Assembly: GCA_021824145.1 (NCBI GenBank)
Contig: JAKALM010000022.1
Coordinates: 1-32,058 of the forward strand
Source: Bacteroidota bacterium
GTDB lineage: Bacteria; Bacteroidota; Ignavibacteria; Ignavibacteriales; Ignavibacteriaceae
Length of the DNA: 32,058 nucleotides
Direction: 5' to 3'
Shown here: positions 18,441 through 24,779 of the stretch, one piece after another
Layout: each line of letters begins with the position of its first letter
Numbering within the stretch: the stretch's first letter is position 1
Notes under the pieces: model-generated
Seen by the model: the letters and a program-made list of their open reading frames with translations, nothing else
The model's database searches: none
Told to the model about the DNA's origin: nothing
Program-made: the position numbers and the translations under genes

Positions 18441-19310
18441 ATGAAAAAAACTATAAAATTTTGGCTGATAGCAATCGCTATTACTCTTGCCGGTGCATAT
18501 TACCAAAGAGTAACTGGACCGACATATCCTTTTACTGGGAATGTTTCAATCAACAATAAAAAGATTTTTTTTAAGCTTGAAAGAAGCTGTAGCAGTTCAG
18601 AAGATTATTTAATTAAAATTAAATCAAATAATTCTGATGCAAAAGGATTTCTTATTTGGAAACGTTTTAAAACAAACGATAGTTGGAATATAATTCCGAT
18701 GGCATTATTTGCAGATACTCTGTTTGCCGAACTGCCCAAGCAGCCTCCTTCCGGCAAACTACAGTATCAAATAGTTTTAAGAAATCAGAATCAAGAAATT
18801 AAAATTCCACAAGCGCAGCCATTAGTAATAAGATTTAAAGGAGACGTTCCTCTTTTCATTCTAATACCACATGTACTTGCAATGTTTTTTGCAATGCTTC
18901 TTTCTACACGCGCTGGTTTAGAATTCTTTAACAAAGAACCTAATTTGAAAAGACATACTTTCTGGACGCTTGGAATTTTATTTTTTGGAGGATTGATTCT
19001 TGGTCCAATTGTTCAACTTTATGCATTTGGTGCATTATGGACTGGTGTTCCATTTGGTTTTGATTTAACTGATAACAAAACGCTGATTGCATTCATTGGT
19101 TGGCTTATTGCGTTAATTGCAATTTATAAATCAAAAAAACCAAAAGCTTGGGTGCTTGCTGCTTCCATTTTACTTTTTGTAGTATATCTTATTCCGCATA
19201 GTGTGCTTGGTTCAGAACTAGATTATAACAAGCTTGATAAACAAAAAAATCAAAAAGAAAATTTAACCATTTTCGATCATCAACAATTATCATCGGGAAA
19301 AAATTTATGA
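18441..19310 (+). CDS. Membrane protein coupled to the OPT transporter (289 aa)
   Basis: I do not recognise the family. There is one N-terminal membrane anchor (about 7-22). A periplasmic beta-rich domain follows (about 28-132; VSINNKKIFFKLERSC, then GKLQYQIVLRNQNQEIKI), resembling an Ig-like fold. Four more membrane segments follow at about 136-155, 173-197, 213-229 and 236-253, and then a hydrophilic tail. Its stop overlaps the ATG of the OPT transporter (ATGA at 19307-19310), which strongly suggests equal-dose translation and a physical or functional partnership. GGGGA precedes the ATG. The extracytoplasmic domain could present substrate or regulate the transporter; this is inference. No catalytic motif is visible. 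Confidence 0.65.
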   Translation: MKKTIKFWLIAIAITLAGAYYQRVTGPTYPFTGNVSINNKKIFFKLERSCSSSEDYLIKIKSNNSDAKGFLIWKRFKTNDSWNIIPMALFADTLFAELPKQPPSGKLQYQIVLRNQNQEIKIPQAQPLVIRFKGDVPLFILIPHVLAMFFAMLLSTRAGLEFFNKEPNLKRHTFWTLGILFFGGLILGPIVQLYAFGALWTGVPFGFDLTDNKTLIAFIGWLIALIAIYKSKKPKAWVLAASILLFVVYLIPHSVLGSELDYNKLDKQKNQKENLTIFDHQQLSSGKNL

Positions 19311-21298
19311 GTGAAACACACATCAACGGTGAAAACTTAAAAGGGCTTCCATCAAATGCTTATACCGAATTGAAGCCTGGAGAAGAATACGTTCCGGTAA
19401 TGCCTCCTTTCAAAGATGTTCCTGAGGTTACTCCTTATTCTGTAATATGGGGAGTTATTATGGCAATTGTATTTTCTGCGGCAGCTGCTTACCTAGGATT
19501 AAAAATTGGACAAGTTTTTGAAGCAGCTATTCCAATTGCAATTATTGCCGTGGGATTATCTGCCGGGACTAAAAGGAAAAACGCTTTGGGCGAAAACGTA
19601 ATTATTCAATCAATCGGACAAAACTCCGGATTGATAGTTGCTGGTGCAATCTTTACAATTCCTGCTCTTTACATCTTAAATCTTAATGCTGAGTTTTACA
19701 AAATTTTTCTTGCATCAGCTTTTGGCGGTATACTCGGAATTTTATTTTTAATACCGTTTAGAAAATTTTTCGTTAGTGATATGCACGGTAAATATCCATT
19801 CCCAGAGGCAACTGCATCTACAGAAGTTTTAGTTGCCGGAGAAAAAGGCGGCAAGCAAGCCATAGTTCTTGTTGTTAGCGGAATTATTGGCGGCTTGTAT
19901 GATTTTATTGTTGCATCATTTGGATGGTGGAGCGAGGTTTTCACATCGCGTGTTTTACCAATAGGAGAAAAGATTGCAGACAAAACCAAATTAGTTTTTA
20001 GAATAAATGTAGGCGCCGCTGTTACTGGTTTAGGTTATATAATTGGATTAAAGTATTCTGCAATTATTGCTGCAGGTTCTTTCGTTTCGTGGTATGTTTT
20101 AATTCCTCTAGTTGCATATTTTGGTCAAGGTTTGACACAACCGCTTGGAGCAAACGTTTCTTTATTAATTAAAGATATGTCTGCTGAACAAATTTTTTCA
20201 AATTACGTCCGCCACATCGGAATTGGTGGTATTGCAATGGCTGGAATTATTGGAATAATTAGGTCATCTAAAATAATCGGTAAAGCATTTTCACTCGCAG
20301 CTAAAGAACTTTTAGGAAAAAAGAAAGCAATTGAAAATCAACTTAGAACCCAAAAAGATCTTAGCATGAAGTTTATTGTACTTGCTTTAATTACTAGCAC
20401 AATTCTAATTTTTATTTATTATCACTTTGGAGTTGTAAACAATATTTGGTTTGCTGTAATTGGTTTGTTAATAGTTCTAATAATTTCATTTCTCTTTACA
20501 ACAGTTGCCGCAACAGCAATCGCAATAGTTGGAACAAATCCGGTTTCAGGAATGACTTTAATGACATTAATACTTTCATCAATCATACTTGTATCAGCTG
20601 GATTAAGTGGCAACTCCGGAATGGTTGCCGCACTTTTAATAGGTGGAGTTGTTTGCACTGCATTATCAATGGCCGGCGGATTTATTACAGATTTAAAAAT
20701 TGGTTACTGGCTTGGTTCTTCTCCATACAAACAAGAAAGTTGGAAATTTCTAGGAGTTTTAGTTTCATCCGCTACTGTCGGCTGGGTAATTTTACTTCTA
20801 AATAAAACATACGGATTCACAGGCCCAGATGCTTTAGTTGCTCCTCAAGCAAATGCAATGGCTGCTGTTATTCAGCCATTGATGGCACATCAACCAGCAC
20901 CTTGGATGTTGTATATTGCAGGAGCTTTATTCGCACTTATTCTTACAATGCTCAACGTGCCTGCACTTGCCTTTGCACTTGGTATGTACATTCCACTTGA
21001 ATTAAATACACCGCTGCTTGTTGGTGGTTTAATTGCTCATTATGTTTCCACAAGAAGTAAAGATGAAAAAATTAACAATGCAAGAAGAGAACGAGGTACA
21101 TTAATCGCATCTGGTTTTATTGCCGGGGGCGCTTTGATGGGAGTTGTCAGTGCTCTGCTTCGATATTTTGGGTTTGATTGGGTAAACAGCGACTGGCAAA
21201 ACTCTCACTCAGCCGAGCTTGTCGCGTTAATCGCTTTTGCGCTTTTATGTGCTTATGTAATTTGGGATTCGATGCGTGGAAAACCTGAAGCAGAATAA
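19307..21298 (+). CDS. OPT-family oligopeptide (or metal-chelate) transporter
   Basis: This 663-residue polytopic inner-membrane protein belongs to the OPT superfamily. Its opening YSVIWGVIMAIVFSAAAAYLGLKIGQVFEAAIPIAIIAVGL is the first-domain signature of bacterial OPT transporters. Further marks are KYPFPEATASTEVL, GTNPVSGMTLMTLI and IQPLMA. About 14-16 hydrophobic segments are visible, and a short soluble N-terminus (residues 1-40) is Pro-rich. OPT members move oligopeptides or peptide- and metal-chelates by proton coupling; substrate is unknown here. The ATG overlaps the stop of the membrane protein at 18441. A strong terminator follows at 21311-21348, closing a two-gene operon. Confidence 0.85.
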   Translation: MSETHINGENLKGLPSNAYTELKPGEEYVPVMPPFKDVPEVTPYSVIWGVIMAIVFSAAAAYLGLKIGQVFEAAIPIAIIAVGLSAGTKRKNALGENVIIQSIGQNSGLIVAGAIFTIPALYILNLNAEFYKIFLASAFGGILGILFLIPFRKFFVSDMHGKYPFPEATASTEVLVAGEKGGKQAIVLVVSGIIGGLYDFIVASFGWWSEVFTSRVLPIGEKIADKTKLVFRINVGAAVTGLGYIIGLKYSAIIAAGSFVSWYVLIPLVAYFGQGLTQPLGANVSLLIKDMSAEQIFSNYVRHIGIGGIAMAGIIGIIRSSKIIGKAFSLAAKELLGKKKAIENQLRTQKDLSMKFIVLALITSTILIFIYYHFGVVNNIWFAVIGLLIVLIISFLFTTVAATAIAIVGTNPVSGMTLMTLILSSIILVSAGLSGNSGMVAALLIGGVVCTALSMAGGFITDLKIGYWLGSSPYKQESWKFLGVLVSSATVGWVILLLNKTYGFTGPDALVAPQANAMAAVIQPLMAHQPAPWMLYIAGALFALILTMLNVPALAFALGMYIPLELNTPLLVGGLIAHYVSTRSKDEKINNARRERGTLIASGFIAGGALMGVVSALLRYFGFDWVNSDWQNSHSAELVALIAFALLCAYVIWDSMRGKPEAE

Positions 21299-21310
21299 GT
21301 CTTATTCATG

Positions 21311-21348
21311 TTCAGCTTGTCTTAAGCAAAGGACAAGCTGAATTTTTT
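21311..21348 (+). terminator. Rho-independent terminator of the OPT operon
   Basis: TTCAGCTTGTC (21311-21321) and GACAAGCTGAA (21332-21342) form a perfect 11-bp stem with a 10-nt loop, followed by six T (21343-21348). It lies 12 nt past the OPT stop codon. There is no matching T-run on minus for the carbonic anhydrase gene. Confidence 0.85.
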
Positions 21349-21375: not shown

Positions 21376-22005
21376 TCAAACTACTCTATATGTAGTAGAT
21401 ATTTCATCCAGACCGGTAATGCAAACATCAAGGTCTCTCAGAATGCCGTCTTCTATATTATAAATCCAGCCGTGAACCGAAAGTTCTTGACCTGTCTTCC
21501 ACGCATTCTGAACAATAGTAGTATGGCAAACATTTGAAACTTGTTCGATAACATTCAACTCGCAAAGCTTATCCAACTTTTCTTTTTCATTTATAATCGC
21601 ATCCAATTTATTCTGATGATATCGATAAACATCCTTAACATTCCTTAGCCAATTGTCAATCAAACCATGATCTTTATTTTCCATCGCCGCTTGAATTCCG
21701 CCGCAGCCATAATGTCCGCAAACAATTATATGTTTTACTTTTAAAACTTCTACCGCGTATTGAATGACGGAAAGACTATTCAAATCGGTATGAACAACGA
21801 TATTCGCGATATTGCGATGTACGAAAATCTGACCCGGAAGCATATCGACAATTTGATTCGCCGGCACACGGCTGTCGGAACATCCAATCCATAAATATTC
21901 CGGCTTCTGCTGTTTGGAAAGATTTAGGAAAAAATCTTTGTCGGATTCCTTCATCCTTTCCGCCCAATTTTTATTTTTATCGAAAAGCTGCTTTAGAATT
22001 CTCAT
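21376..22005 (-). CDS. can: Beta-class carbonic anhydrase (Can-type)
   Basis: This 209-residue cytoplasmic zinc enzyme interconverts CO2 and bicarbonate. The zinc ligands fall at exactly the positions of Escherichia coli Can: Cys42 and Asp44 (CSDSR, with Arg46), then His98 and Cys101 (CGHYGCGG). The segments VPANQIVDMLPGQIFVHRNIAN and SLSVIQYAVEVLKVKHIIVCGH are typical of plant-like (clade B) beta enzymes. The end VHGWIYNIEDGILRDLDV matches too, so the protein looks complete. It has its own promoter candidate upstream. It would supply bicarbonate for carboxylations or retain CO2. Confidence 0.92.
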   Translation of the reverse strand: MRILKQLFDKNKNWAERMKESDKDFFLNLSKQQKPEYLWIGCSDSRVPANQIVDMLPGQIFVHRNIANIVVHTDLNSLSVIQYAVEVLKVKHIIVCGHYGCGGIQAAMENKDHGLIDNWLRNVKDVYRYHQNKLDAIINEKEKLDKLCELNVIEQVSNVCHTTIVQNAWKTGQELSVHGWIYNIEDGILRDLDVCITGLDEISTTYRVV

Positions 22006-22139: not shown

Positions 22140-22784
22140 TTACTTCGACAAGTAAGCTCTTAAATAAACATCACGATTAACCAGATAGCCGACAATTTCC
22201 ATAGGGAACAGAAATATTAAGCTAATCCAAAAGCCTTTTTTGTATGGCGGAAAACTTAAAAAATCAAATTTTCTTCCGAAGCTTCTGATATACTTTGTTT
22301 TCATGCCGGCTAATCTGATTAAATATTTTAACGAATGAAAATTAAAACCGACAACATGATAAGGTGTATCAAACGGCTTGAGTTTTTCCGAAAAATTCCC
22401 TTTCCCTACTAGCTTAAACGCCGCTCGCATAATGTAATTGAACAAGCTGTCTTCGTTCGGAACGCCAATGTATAATATTACTCCAGGCTTAAGAATTTTT
22501 TCTGCTTTGGTGAAATATCCCAATGGTTCTAGAACGTGTTCGAGAACGGAATCCATATAAATAAAATCAAAATGATTTTCCGGAAAATCATATTCTAGAA
22601 ATTTCCCTTTTATAAAATTTACTCTGCTTGATTCGTCTTTGTCAACCCTATTATCTACAATATCAATACCTGTTGTTTCCCAACCCCTATTCACAGCCTC
22701 AATAAGCGTCTTCCTCTCTCCGGCGCCTATATCTAGAAATTTAATTTGGTTAACTGATGGAAGAAAATTTCCAGCTTTGTCCAA
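22140..22784 (-). CDS. SAM-dependent methyltransferase (domain-11 type); true N-terminus upstream
   Basis: A class I methyltransferase. Motif I is IKFLDIGAGERKTL near residues 13-26 of this frame. It is followed by WETTGIDIVD, FDFIYMDSVLEHV and AEKILKPGVILYIGVPNE. This catalytic core is followed by a 90-residue tail with a hydrophobic segment (GFWISLIFLFPMEIVGYLV) that may touch the membrane. The first usable start codon is TTG at 22784, with no clear ribosome site. But the frame stays open upstream to 23057 and encodes a CxxC-containing domain common in this family, so this start is almost certainly internal to the original gene. The substrate may be a sugar or lipid-linked intermediate (inference). 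It lies downstream of proS on the same strand. Confidence 0.65.
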   Translation of the reverse strand: MDKAGNFLPSVNQIKFLDIGAGERKTLIEAVNRGWETTGIDIVDNRVDKDESSRVNFIKGKFLEYDFPENHFDFIYMDSVLEHVLEPLGYFTKAEKILKPGVILYIGVPNEDSLFNYIMRAAFKLVGKGNFSEKLKPFDTPYHVVGFNFHSLKYLIRLAGMKTKYIRSFGRKFDFLSFPPYKKGFWISLIFLFPMEIVGYLVNRDVYLRAYLSK

Positions 22785-23057
22785 TCTTTTTGAAACCTCT
22801 TTCGCTCTTCTTTTTTCTAGCCATTTTGATTGTTCAGAAAAGTATTCCGAATTGTAAAGAGCCGACCATTGTTCGTAGGTAAATTCAATTCTAGGAGCTA
22901 CGAAATAAGATTTGCAATTTTTACATCTTACGATGTAATAATCTTTACTTATGAATTTAGCAGAAATTGAATTGGTTTTTAATTTACCTAGAATAATAAA
23001 TTCTTTGCTTTTACAGACAGGACAAAAATTTTCCCTAACCGAGTTTTTCCCTATTCG
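22785..23057 (-). other. In-frame upstream coding extension of the methyltransferase, no usual start codon
   Basis: The reading frame of the methyltransferase continues 91 codons upstream of TTG 22784, to a TGA at 23060-23058. Translation gives a plausible zinc-ribbon: FCPVCKS (Cys codons at 23024-23022 and 23015-23013) and RCKNCKS (at 22925-22923 and 22916-22914), then YNSEYFSEQSKWLEKRR leading into the core. This N-terminal C4 domain plus methyltransferase layout is familiar from methyltransferases acting on sugar-related substrates. There is no ATG, GTG or TTG in this stretch; the only near-cognate near the start is ATA at 23054-23052. A lost start codon, a 1-nt indel near 23030-23050, or a rare start codon could explain this. 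Confidence 0.6.
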
Positions 23058-23084: not shown

Positions 23085-24779
23085 TTAAATTGTATTCAGC
23101 AATTCTTTCAACTTATCCATCAAATCATTTACAGCAACATCGAGCCTTTCACCTGTCTTACGCAGCTTAACTTCAACCTTACCCTCTTTCAGCTTTTTGT
23201 CGCCGACAATTACCTGCACCGGCATTCCGAGCAAATCGGCATCATTAAACTTAAATCCAGCTTGTGCATCGAGCCGGTCATCAAACAAAACTTCTATTCC
23301 GGCTTGAGTTAATTCATTATAAATTTTTTCAGATGTATCTACTACTTCTTGCTTACGCATGTTTAATCCGATTAAATGGACATGGAACGGTGCTAAAGTT
23401 TTATCCCAAATCATGCCTTTGTCATCGTTATGCTGCTCAATATAACAAGCCATTACACGCTCCACACCAATTCCGTAGCTGCCCATTATCAAAGGATTTT
23501 CTTTTCCGTTCTCATCTAAAAACATAGCTTTCATCGAATCGGAATATTTTGTGCCGAGTTTAAAAATATGCCCAAGCTCAATTGCCGTGAATACTTCAAG
23601 TTTATTTCCACATCTAGGACATCCATCATTTGATTTTACAATTCGAAAATCTTCATATTCAATATCCTTAACATCTCGCTTCAAATCAATTCCGCCGATG
23701 TGAAAATCATTTTTATTCGCTCCGCTAAAAAGATTGTTTGCATCTTTTAAACGATTGTCGGCAATTATTTTTCCTTTAAATCCAATCGGTCCTATTGAAC
23801 CAGCATCTGCGCCTGTAATTTCTTTTAGTTCATCCGGATGAGCAGGACGAACTGTTCCTCCTAAAACCTTTTGCAGCTTTGTTTCATTCACTTCATCATT
23901 GCCGAGCATTAAAATTAAAACAGCTTTGCCATCATGGATATAAACTCTCGATTTTGCACATTGTGTTTCATCAATTTTTAAGAAAGCACAAAGCTCATCA
24001 ATCGATTTAACATTTGGAGTATAAATTTCTTTTAAATCTTCACTTTTACTTTCTCTTTTCTTCCCATCAATTTTTGAAACTGCTACTTCAACATTTGCAG
24101 CATATCCACAGTGCTCGCAATATGCAACCGTATCTTCGCCAGCATCAGACTTCACCATAAATTCTTCTGAGCCGGTACCGCCCATCGCGCCGCTTGATGC
24201 GCCGACTACAAAATATTTCAGATCGCATCTGTCGAAAATTTTCCTGTAAGCTTTATCATGATAGCCATATGCAATATCAAGACCTTCCCAGGTTGCATCA
24301 AAAGTGTAAGCGTCTTTCATCAAAAATTGTCTGCCGCGAATTACTCCGCTTCTCGGACGCGCTTCGTTTCTAAATTTAGTTTGAATCTGATACCAGATTT
24401 GCGGAAGGTCTTTATAGGATTTTAAAACATTCCGAGCATGGAAAGTCATAATTTCTTCGTGAGTAGGAGCTAAAACATAATCTCGGTTTTTTACATGGAA
24501 TAAAATATCTCCAAAAGATTCAACACGATTTGTTTCTTCCCAAATTTCTCTTGGGTTTAATGCCGGCAGATGAAATTCCTGCCCGCCAATTGCATTCATT
24601 TCTTCTCTAATGATTTCTGTAATTTTCCTAATTACACGGTAACCGACCGGTAAGAAAGAATAAATTCCTGCAGAAACCATTCTAACCATTCCAGCTCTTA
24701 GCATTAGAATATGGCTTTTAACAACTGCATCGTTAGGTACTTCTTTTAATGTTGGAACAAACGATTTACTTAAACGCAT
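23085..24779 (-). CDS. proS: Proline--tRNA ligase (bacterial type)
   Basis: This 564-residue class II aminoacyl-tRNA synthetase charges tRNA-Pro. Class II motif 1 lies in the first 70 residues (FLPVGYRVIRKITEIIREEM). Motif 2 is KFRNEARPRSGVIRGRQFLMKD near 135-156, GTGSEEFM is at 201-208, and motif 3 is GSYGIGVERVMACY. The long insertion between motifs 2 and 3 (about 220-400) is the bacterial INS editing domain that clears mischarged Ala. CEHCGYA and GCPRCGNKLE, flanking this insertion, form a four-cysteine zinc-binding-like pair, seen in a subset of bacterial ProRS. The C-terminal 100 residues are the anticodon-binding domain. It diverges from the YceH-family gene. The anomalous methyltransferase frame begins about 25 nt after its stop. 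Confidence 0.94.
   Translation of the reverse strand: MRLSKSFVPTLKEVPNDAVVKSHILMLRAGMVRMVSAGIYSFLPVGYRVIRKITEIIREEMNAIGGQEFHLPALNPREIWEETNRVESFGDILFHVKNRDYVLAPTHEEIMTFHARNVLKSYKDLPQIWYQIQTKFRNEARPRSGVIRGRQFLMKDAYTFDATWEGLDIAYGYHDKAYRKIFDRCDLKYFVVGASSGAMGGTGSEEFMVKSDAGEDTVAYCEHCGYAANVEVAVSKIDGKKRESKSEDLKEIYTPNVKSIDELCAFLKIDETQCAKSRVYIHDGKAVLILMLGNDEVNETKLQKVLGGTVRPAHPDELKEITGADAGSIGPIGFKGKIIADNRLKDANNLFSGANKNDFHIGGIDLKRDVKDIEYEDFRIVKSNDGCPRCGNKLEVFTAIELGHIFKLGTKYSDSMKAMFLDENGKENPLIMGSYGIGVERVMACYIEQHNDDKGMIWDKTLAPFHVHLIGLNMRKQEVVDTSEKIYNELTQAGIEVLFDDRLDAQAGFKFNDADLLGMPVQVIVGDKKLKEGKVEVKLRKTGERLDVAVNDLMDKLKELLNTI

Follow-up and report, generated by a model that had tools for sequence, protein, structure and literature searches.

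Bacterial pseudogenes of recent origin whose start codon has been lost are a known general kind, and infC with a non-AUG start codon is known in other bacteria. The sugar C3-methyltransferases KijD1 and TcaB9 also carry an N-terminal zinc-binding domain, and the Pfam domains of their family are the zinc-binding Methyltransf_13 and the C-terminal Methyltransf_14. In the window (the whole stretch of DNA analyzed, 32,058 nucleotides, which is one whole contig of an Ignavibacteriaceae genome), a methyltransferase frame was found whose relatives form an uncharacterized orphan family of Ignavibacteriales combining a zinc ribbon with Methyltransf_23 (L004/L064, L005/L067, L006, L007/L065, and others), the four named here being 55 to 65% identical to the window copy over nearly the whole length. 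The cysteine pairs and the C terminus are held in common, whereas the family has ATG starts and the motif I glycine and the window copy is without both. We consider it most likely that the gene was disabled recently and does not represent a novel mode of translation initiation, and give a probability of about 0.6 to the frame being a pseudogene, derived from an orphan zinc-ribbon methyltransferase, that lost its start recently. It shares with other recent start-lost pseudogenes an intact frame, an absent start, and a patchy distribution; unlike them, it could be a sequence error or encode a truncated active product. As such, it may illustrate, on a small scale, how a gene that is an orphan and was probably acquired can lose its start while the frame is still intact.

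The frame occupies positions 22140 to 23057 on the reverse strand and runs, open throughout its 305 codons, from CGA at 23057 (after TGA at 23060-23058) to TAA at 22142-22140. It encodes the zinc-ribbon-like N-terminal pairs CPVC (residues 12 to 15; 23013-23024, reverse strand) and CKNC (residues 45 to 48; 22914-22925, reverse strand), with C12, P13, C15, C45, and C48 invariant in alignments, together with a class I SAM methyltransferase domain. As the first-pass annotation had described, the frame is open from 23057 and offers no ATG, GTG, or TTG until the TTG at 22782-22784 (reverse strand; residue 92). The same annotation had assigned both cysteine pairs to the protein, and we retain this assignment because Pfam methyltransferase matches fall within residues 83 to 215 and homologues can be aligned starting with the CPxC motif. 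The upstream neighbor is proS (23085-24779, reverse strand), encoding a prolyl-tRNA synthetase with class II core, editing, and anticodon domains. A gap of about 25 nt had been noted; the frame does follow proS directly, and, measured from the proS end (23085), the frame edge is 27 nt away, ATA 23054 lies at 30 nt, and the AGG in the usual place of the start lies at 48 nt. The stretch separating the proS stop from the CPVC codon has two start-like triplets and no more: GTG 23081, which is in the methyltransferase frame but has in-frame stops after it, and TTG 23025, which is in a different frame. Read-through from proS was rejected: proS and the methyltransferase are in the same frame, yet in-frame stops intervene. 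The lack of an early start exceeds what chance would give: in a sample of 249 open reading frames of the same genome (the longest nonoverlapping ones with at least 200 codons, taken from the first 400 kb of contig C27), the first start never lay beyond codon 35 (median, 4; 99th percentile, 30), while 91 codons precede the first start in the methyltransferase frame. This sample therefore gives no sign that the organism hides its starts from the usual rule.

The first-pass annotation had proposed aligning homologues to see where they begin, and this comparison was made with 29 loci including that of the window; the 28 others represent 24 distinct genes, since four pairs (L066/L149, L069/L146, L076/L151, and L083/L153) agree in both identity and length. 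The set left aside repeat loci of the same genes, the distant L088 to L142 (≤34% identity), L016/L085 from genome G040 (broken N-terminal frame), L018 (a 3' fragment), and L017, which lies at a contig edge and has an ATG five codons before the cysteine. In all 28 rows, an ATG, GTG, or TTG stands 1 to 12 codons before the first cysteine, and therefore no homologue needs the position of 22784. Among the nine nearest distinct homologues (≥53% identity), seven (L004, L006, L007, L008, L009, L010, and L146) carry their ATG precisely four codons ahead of CPxC, L005 has ATG at three codons, and the start of L149 is a TTG at one codon; the window has AGG (23034-23036, reverse strand) in the four-codon position. 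A feature needed for expression is thus missing here and kept in 28/28 homologue rows, the broken G040 copy being outside this count. Of the three options that the first-pass annotation had offered (a lost start, a 1-nt indel, or a rare start codon), the lost start is the best supported, given the homologue starts and the AGG facing ATG. The ancestor presumably started at the AGG position. Homology of the leader with that of the closest relative was not significant (729 of 2,000 shuffles scored as high), which leaves a point substitution no better supported than loss at a junction.

Candidate starts were compared by scoring upstream sequence against the anti-Shine-Dalgarno (SD) sequence, with 249 sampled starts (the first start of each frame, hence approximate) and 249 internal controls as references. 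The 17-nt stretch preceding AGG 23036-23034, including the SD-like AGGG at 23049-23052 (reverse strand), reached -4.8 kcal/mol, a value equaled or exceeded in strength by 32% of the starts and 8% of the controls. The ATA at 23052-23054 (reverse strand), the single in-frame AUN-type codon upstream of CPVC, scored 0.1 kcal/mol, with 67% of starts and 67% of controls at least as strong. For TTG 22784, which has an SD-like AGAGG upstream, the score was -5.3 kcal/mol, with 27% of starts and 6% of controls at least as strong.

No internal stop or frameshift was found in the 305 codons. At 2 of the 41 columns invariant in the other 22 full-length homologues (columns 108 and 186 of that alignment, residues 115 and 193 of the frame's protein, P0001), the window departs, and both changes, G to R and G to V, are radical. 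Arg115 (AGG codon; 22713-22715, reverse strand) replaces the last glycine of SAM-binding motif I (GxGEG), and Val193 (22479-22481, reverse strand) replaces a conserved glycine. The GxGxG of motif I is accordingly not intact, reading GAGER in the window, whereas its last glycine is present in 13/13 homologues aligned; these 13, found without a motif pattern, are the set relied on for residue 115. In a wider, more distant set, residue 115 was G at 76, R at 2, and A at 1 of 79 loci, a biased count because one search pattern contained GEG, and residue 193 was glycine at 65 of 77 loci and another residue, never valine, at 12. The other 22 homologues also depart at 0 to 2 invariant columns each, so the two glycine changes are no more than suggestive. 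A codon branch test gave an omega of 0.11 for the window against 0.09 for the background (2dlnL, 0.26), which shows no sign of long relaxation, and was uninformative because synonymous sites are saturated; the foreground branches L008, L011, L014, and L149 ran to absurd lengths, and higher omega values were obtained for the intact homologues L004 (0.24), L077 (0.25), L081 (0.51), and L074 (1.67). With no difference in omega, the loss, if real, would be recent. The pseudogene would then be young and silent or nearly so: the start codon would have been lost where the nearest relatives carry ATG, with the SD-like AGGG remaining upstream, and the replacement of one Gly by Arg in the SAM-binding loop and of another by Val would fit early loss of function. 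The methyltransferase protein is probably not made, as judged from the sequence.

A base-call or assembly error, behind which the cell would have a normal start codon and an intact gene, is unlikely but is the alternative that survives best. One wrong base would be enough, as 6 of the 180 single-base substitutions that are possible between proS and CPVC create an in-frame start, and the frame is otherwise open and, as an average over the branch, under constraint. However, the 3.48-Mb genome, assembled in 37 contigs, is rated 95% complete, no such defect occurred among the 249 sampled reading frames, and the glycine changes would have to be explained separately. Single deletions in the same interval gave an in-frame start in 0/60 cases and insertions in 4/240; loss or gain of a base in the A or T runs is thus unlikely to be the cause, and a 1-nt indel near 23030-23050, which the first-pass annotation had considered, was rejected as the main cause.

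Translation from TTG 22784, yielding a 214-residue methyltransferase without the zinc ribbon, is slightly less probable again than a sequence error. TTG is a normal start in this genetic code, its SD-like score is slightly better than that of the AGG, and the codon lies upstream of SAM motif I (residues 108 to 115). Against this, a start precedes the cysteines in all 28 homologue rows, the homologous residue at this position is Phe in 14 of 22 sequences, Leu in 6, and Ile in 2, and the product would lose W64, Y68, Y72, F73, R84, and R91, all invariant in the alignment, while keeping R115 and V193. A mechanical start-codon rule would call this 214-amino-acid protein and hide the zinc ribbon.

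Low-level synthesis of the full-length protein from a non-AUG codon, either ATA 23054 or the AGG, appears improbable. The AGG is preceded by the SD-like AGGG, and the infC frame of the same genome (L176, G000:C7 near 38142-38345, reverse strand) likewise has no ATG, GTG, or TTG before its conserved N terminus; infC here likely starts, judging by its sequence, at an ATC behind GAGAGG, and therefore near-cognate initiation probably exists in this organism. The ATA, which the first-pass annotation had put forward as a rare start codon, is possible as such but has no SD match before it, and none of the 249 sampled reading frames appears to need a noncanonical start. Moreover, a passage of PMC10666635 cites an experimental survey of all 64 codons in which ATT, the seventh best start codon, had ∼0.3% of the efficiency of ATG. 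A more specific form of this idea, in which the AGG behind AGGG or ATA 23054 would keep the dose of an acquired enzyme deliberately low and sensitive to IF3, like the probable ATC of infC, is more doubtful still. If the protein were made, the locus would allow non-AUG initiation to be tested in a natural setting outside model bacteria. Reinitiation coupled to proS, raised by the first-pass annotation, is very improbable and was rejected on distance: although the genes share a strand, the gap is short, and no terminator-like site was found between proS and the methyltransferase frame, the 30 to 48 nt to be crossed end at no canonical start codon, and the part of PMC10666635 dealing with coupling describes it as nearly abolished at about 20 nt and, for E. 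coli at 38 nt, as reduced by 80 to 90% for two gene pairs and completely for one.

Returning to the probable start-lost pseudogene, the protein that the gene would have encoded can be assigned to the class I SAM-dependent methyltransferases, with a Rossmann domain indicated by both Pfam (PF13489, 9.2e-16; PF08241, 9.6e-13; both above the curated cutoffs) and the predicted fold. An AlphaFold2 model built with 20 sequences had a mean pLDDT of 87.9, low over residues 1 to 8 and high from the cysteine pairs on. Foldseek matched it to SAM methyltransferases of many kinds, the best E value belonging to 3dli of A. fulgidus, and the matches spanning most of the model included KijD1 and TcaB9 (PDB 5t64, 5t67, 5t6b, and 4e33; TMq, 0.57 to 0.62). 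These alignments cover ∼315 to 323 columns at 11 to 14% identity, the chains of the C3-methyltransferases being 393 to 406 residues long. Neither Methyltransf_13 nor Methyltransf_14 was among the five Pfam hits of the window protein (E ≤ 0.001), and Pfam gives no support for placing the protein in the KijD1/TcaB9 family. Intact members of the window's family may act on sugars, and our guess, from the modeled fold and the polysaccharide context of some divergent homologues, is that they methylate a sugar or glycan precursor.

These contexts were drawn from a neighbor survey in which 20 genes, and 3 more, were scanned. Close homologues adjoin unrelated genes; L067, for example, is surrounded by peptidase M16 and amidohydrolase genes. 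Among divergent homologues (∼40% identity), L077 and L075 lie among glycosyltransferases, the latter near an O-antigen ligase gene and in a genome (G004) of the window's own genus, and L078 is beside a GDP-mannose dehydratase-like gene; for L082 (43% identity), neither of the two neighbors scanned was of polysaccharide type. In two genomes of one other genus (L068 in G058 and L177 in G013), an intact gene stands between glmS-like and SAICAR synthetase genes, unlike the place of the window copy.

The family is patchily distributed, with matches in 19 of 80 genomes of the taxonomic family at E ≤ 1e-30, including that of the window and two with broken or fragmentary copies (G040 and G012). In a phylum-wide sample, 6 of 395 genomes matched at E ≤ 1e-40, the window's genome included, and this sample revealed no relative beyond those from the earlier homologue search; a first scan of genome contigs with P0001 also returned no relative. 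The nearest named relatives are mostly in metagenome-assembled genomes of Ignavibacteriaceae or Ignavibacteria. The gene is decaying in other genomes too. The G040 copy (L085/L016) is broken by a stop codon immediately ahead of NCPLC and by a frameshift around residue 160, and it has Gly in place of the first cysteine of the second pair. G012, the closest genus member by proS, has a 3' fragment alone (L018/L179; ∼80 codons, residues 227 to 305, 68% identical), located at 608-844 of C15, a contig other than that carrying its proS.

Comparison of the proS locus within the genus suggests how the gene came to its present place. While proS is present in 13/13 genomes of the genus, neither the methyltransferase gene nor the adjacent carbonic anhydrase gene (Pfam Pro_CA; 21376-22005, reverse strand) was found in the proS flanks (up to 1.5 kb) of the 12 other genomes (13 proS pieces). 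In 6 of these 12 (G012, G003, G002, G005, G006, and G011; stretches L034, L036, L038, L041, L042, and L044), the next gene after proS is that of the OPT-family transporter, convergent and at a distance of ∼0.05 to 0.9 kb, without the two extra genes; the gap is ∼0.05 kb in L034 and L036, and L034 is from G012, whose proS is 92% identical to that of the window. In the window, the OPT gene (19307-21298, forward strand) is separated from proS by 1.8 kb holding the methyltransferase and carbonic anhydrase genes, and a terminator-like hairpin (21310-21343, forward strand) lies between the OPT and carbonic anhydrase genes. In the remaining six genomes (L035, L037, L039, L040, L043, and L045), the 1.5 kb downstream of proS yielded no OPT gene or other match to the window, and we therefore infer the ancestral order. 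Gain of the pair in the window lineage is the simplest reading of these sequences: the orphan gene for a class I SAM methyltransferase with a zinc ribbon at its N terminus, which was probably obtained by horizontal transfer, would together with the carbonic anhydrase gene make up the extra DNA between proS and the OPT gene, the pair having presumably been inserted here rather than lost elsewhere. Of the 12 other genomes of the genus, two (G008 and G001) have close relatives of the carbonic anhydrase (E ≤ 1e-30), located on contigs that do not carry proS. The codon-usage score of the carbonic anhydrase gene is low, like that of the adjoining methyltransferase (0.04 and 0.06 per codon).
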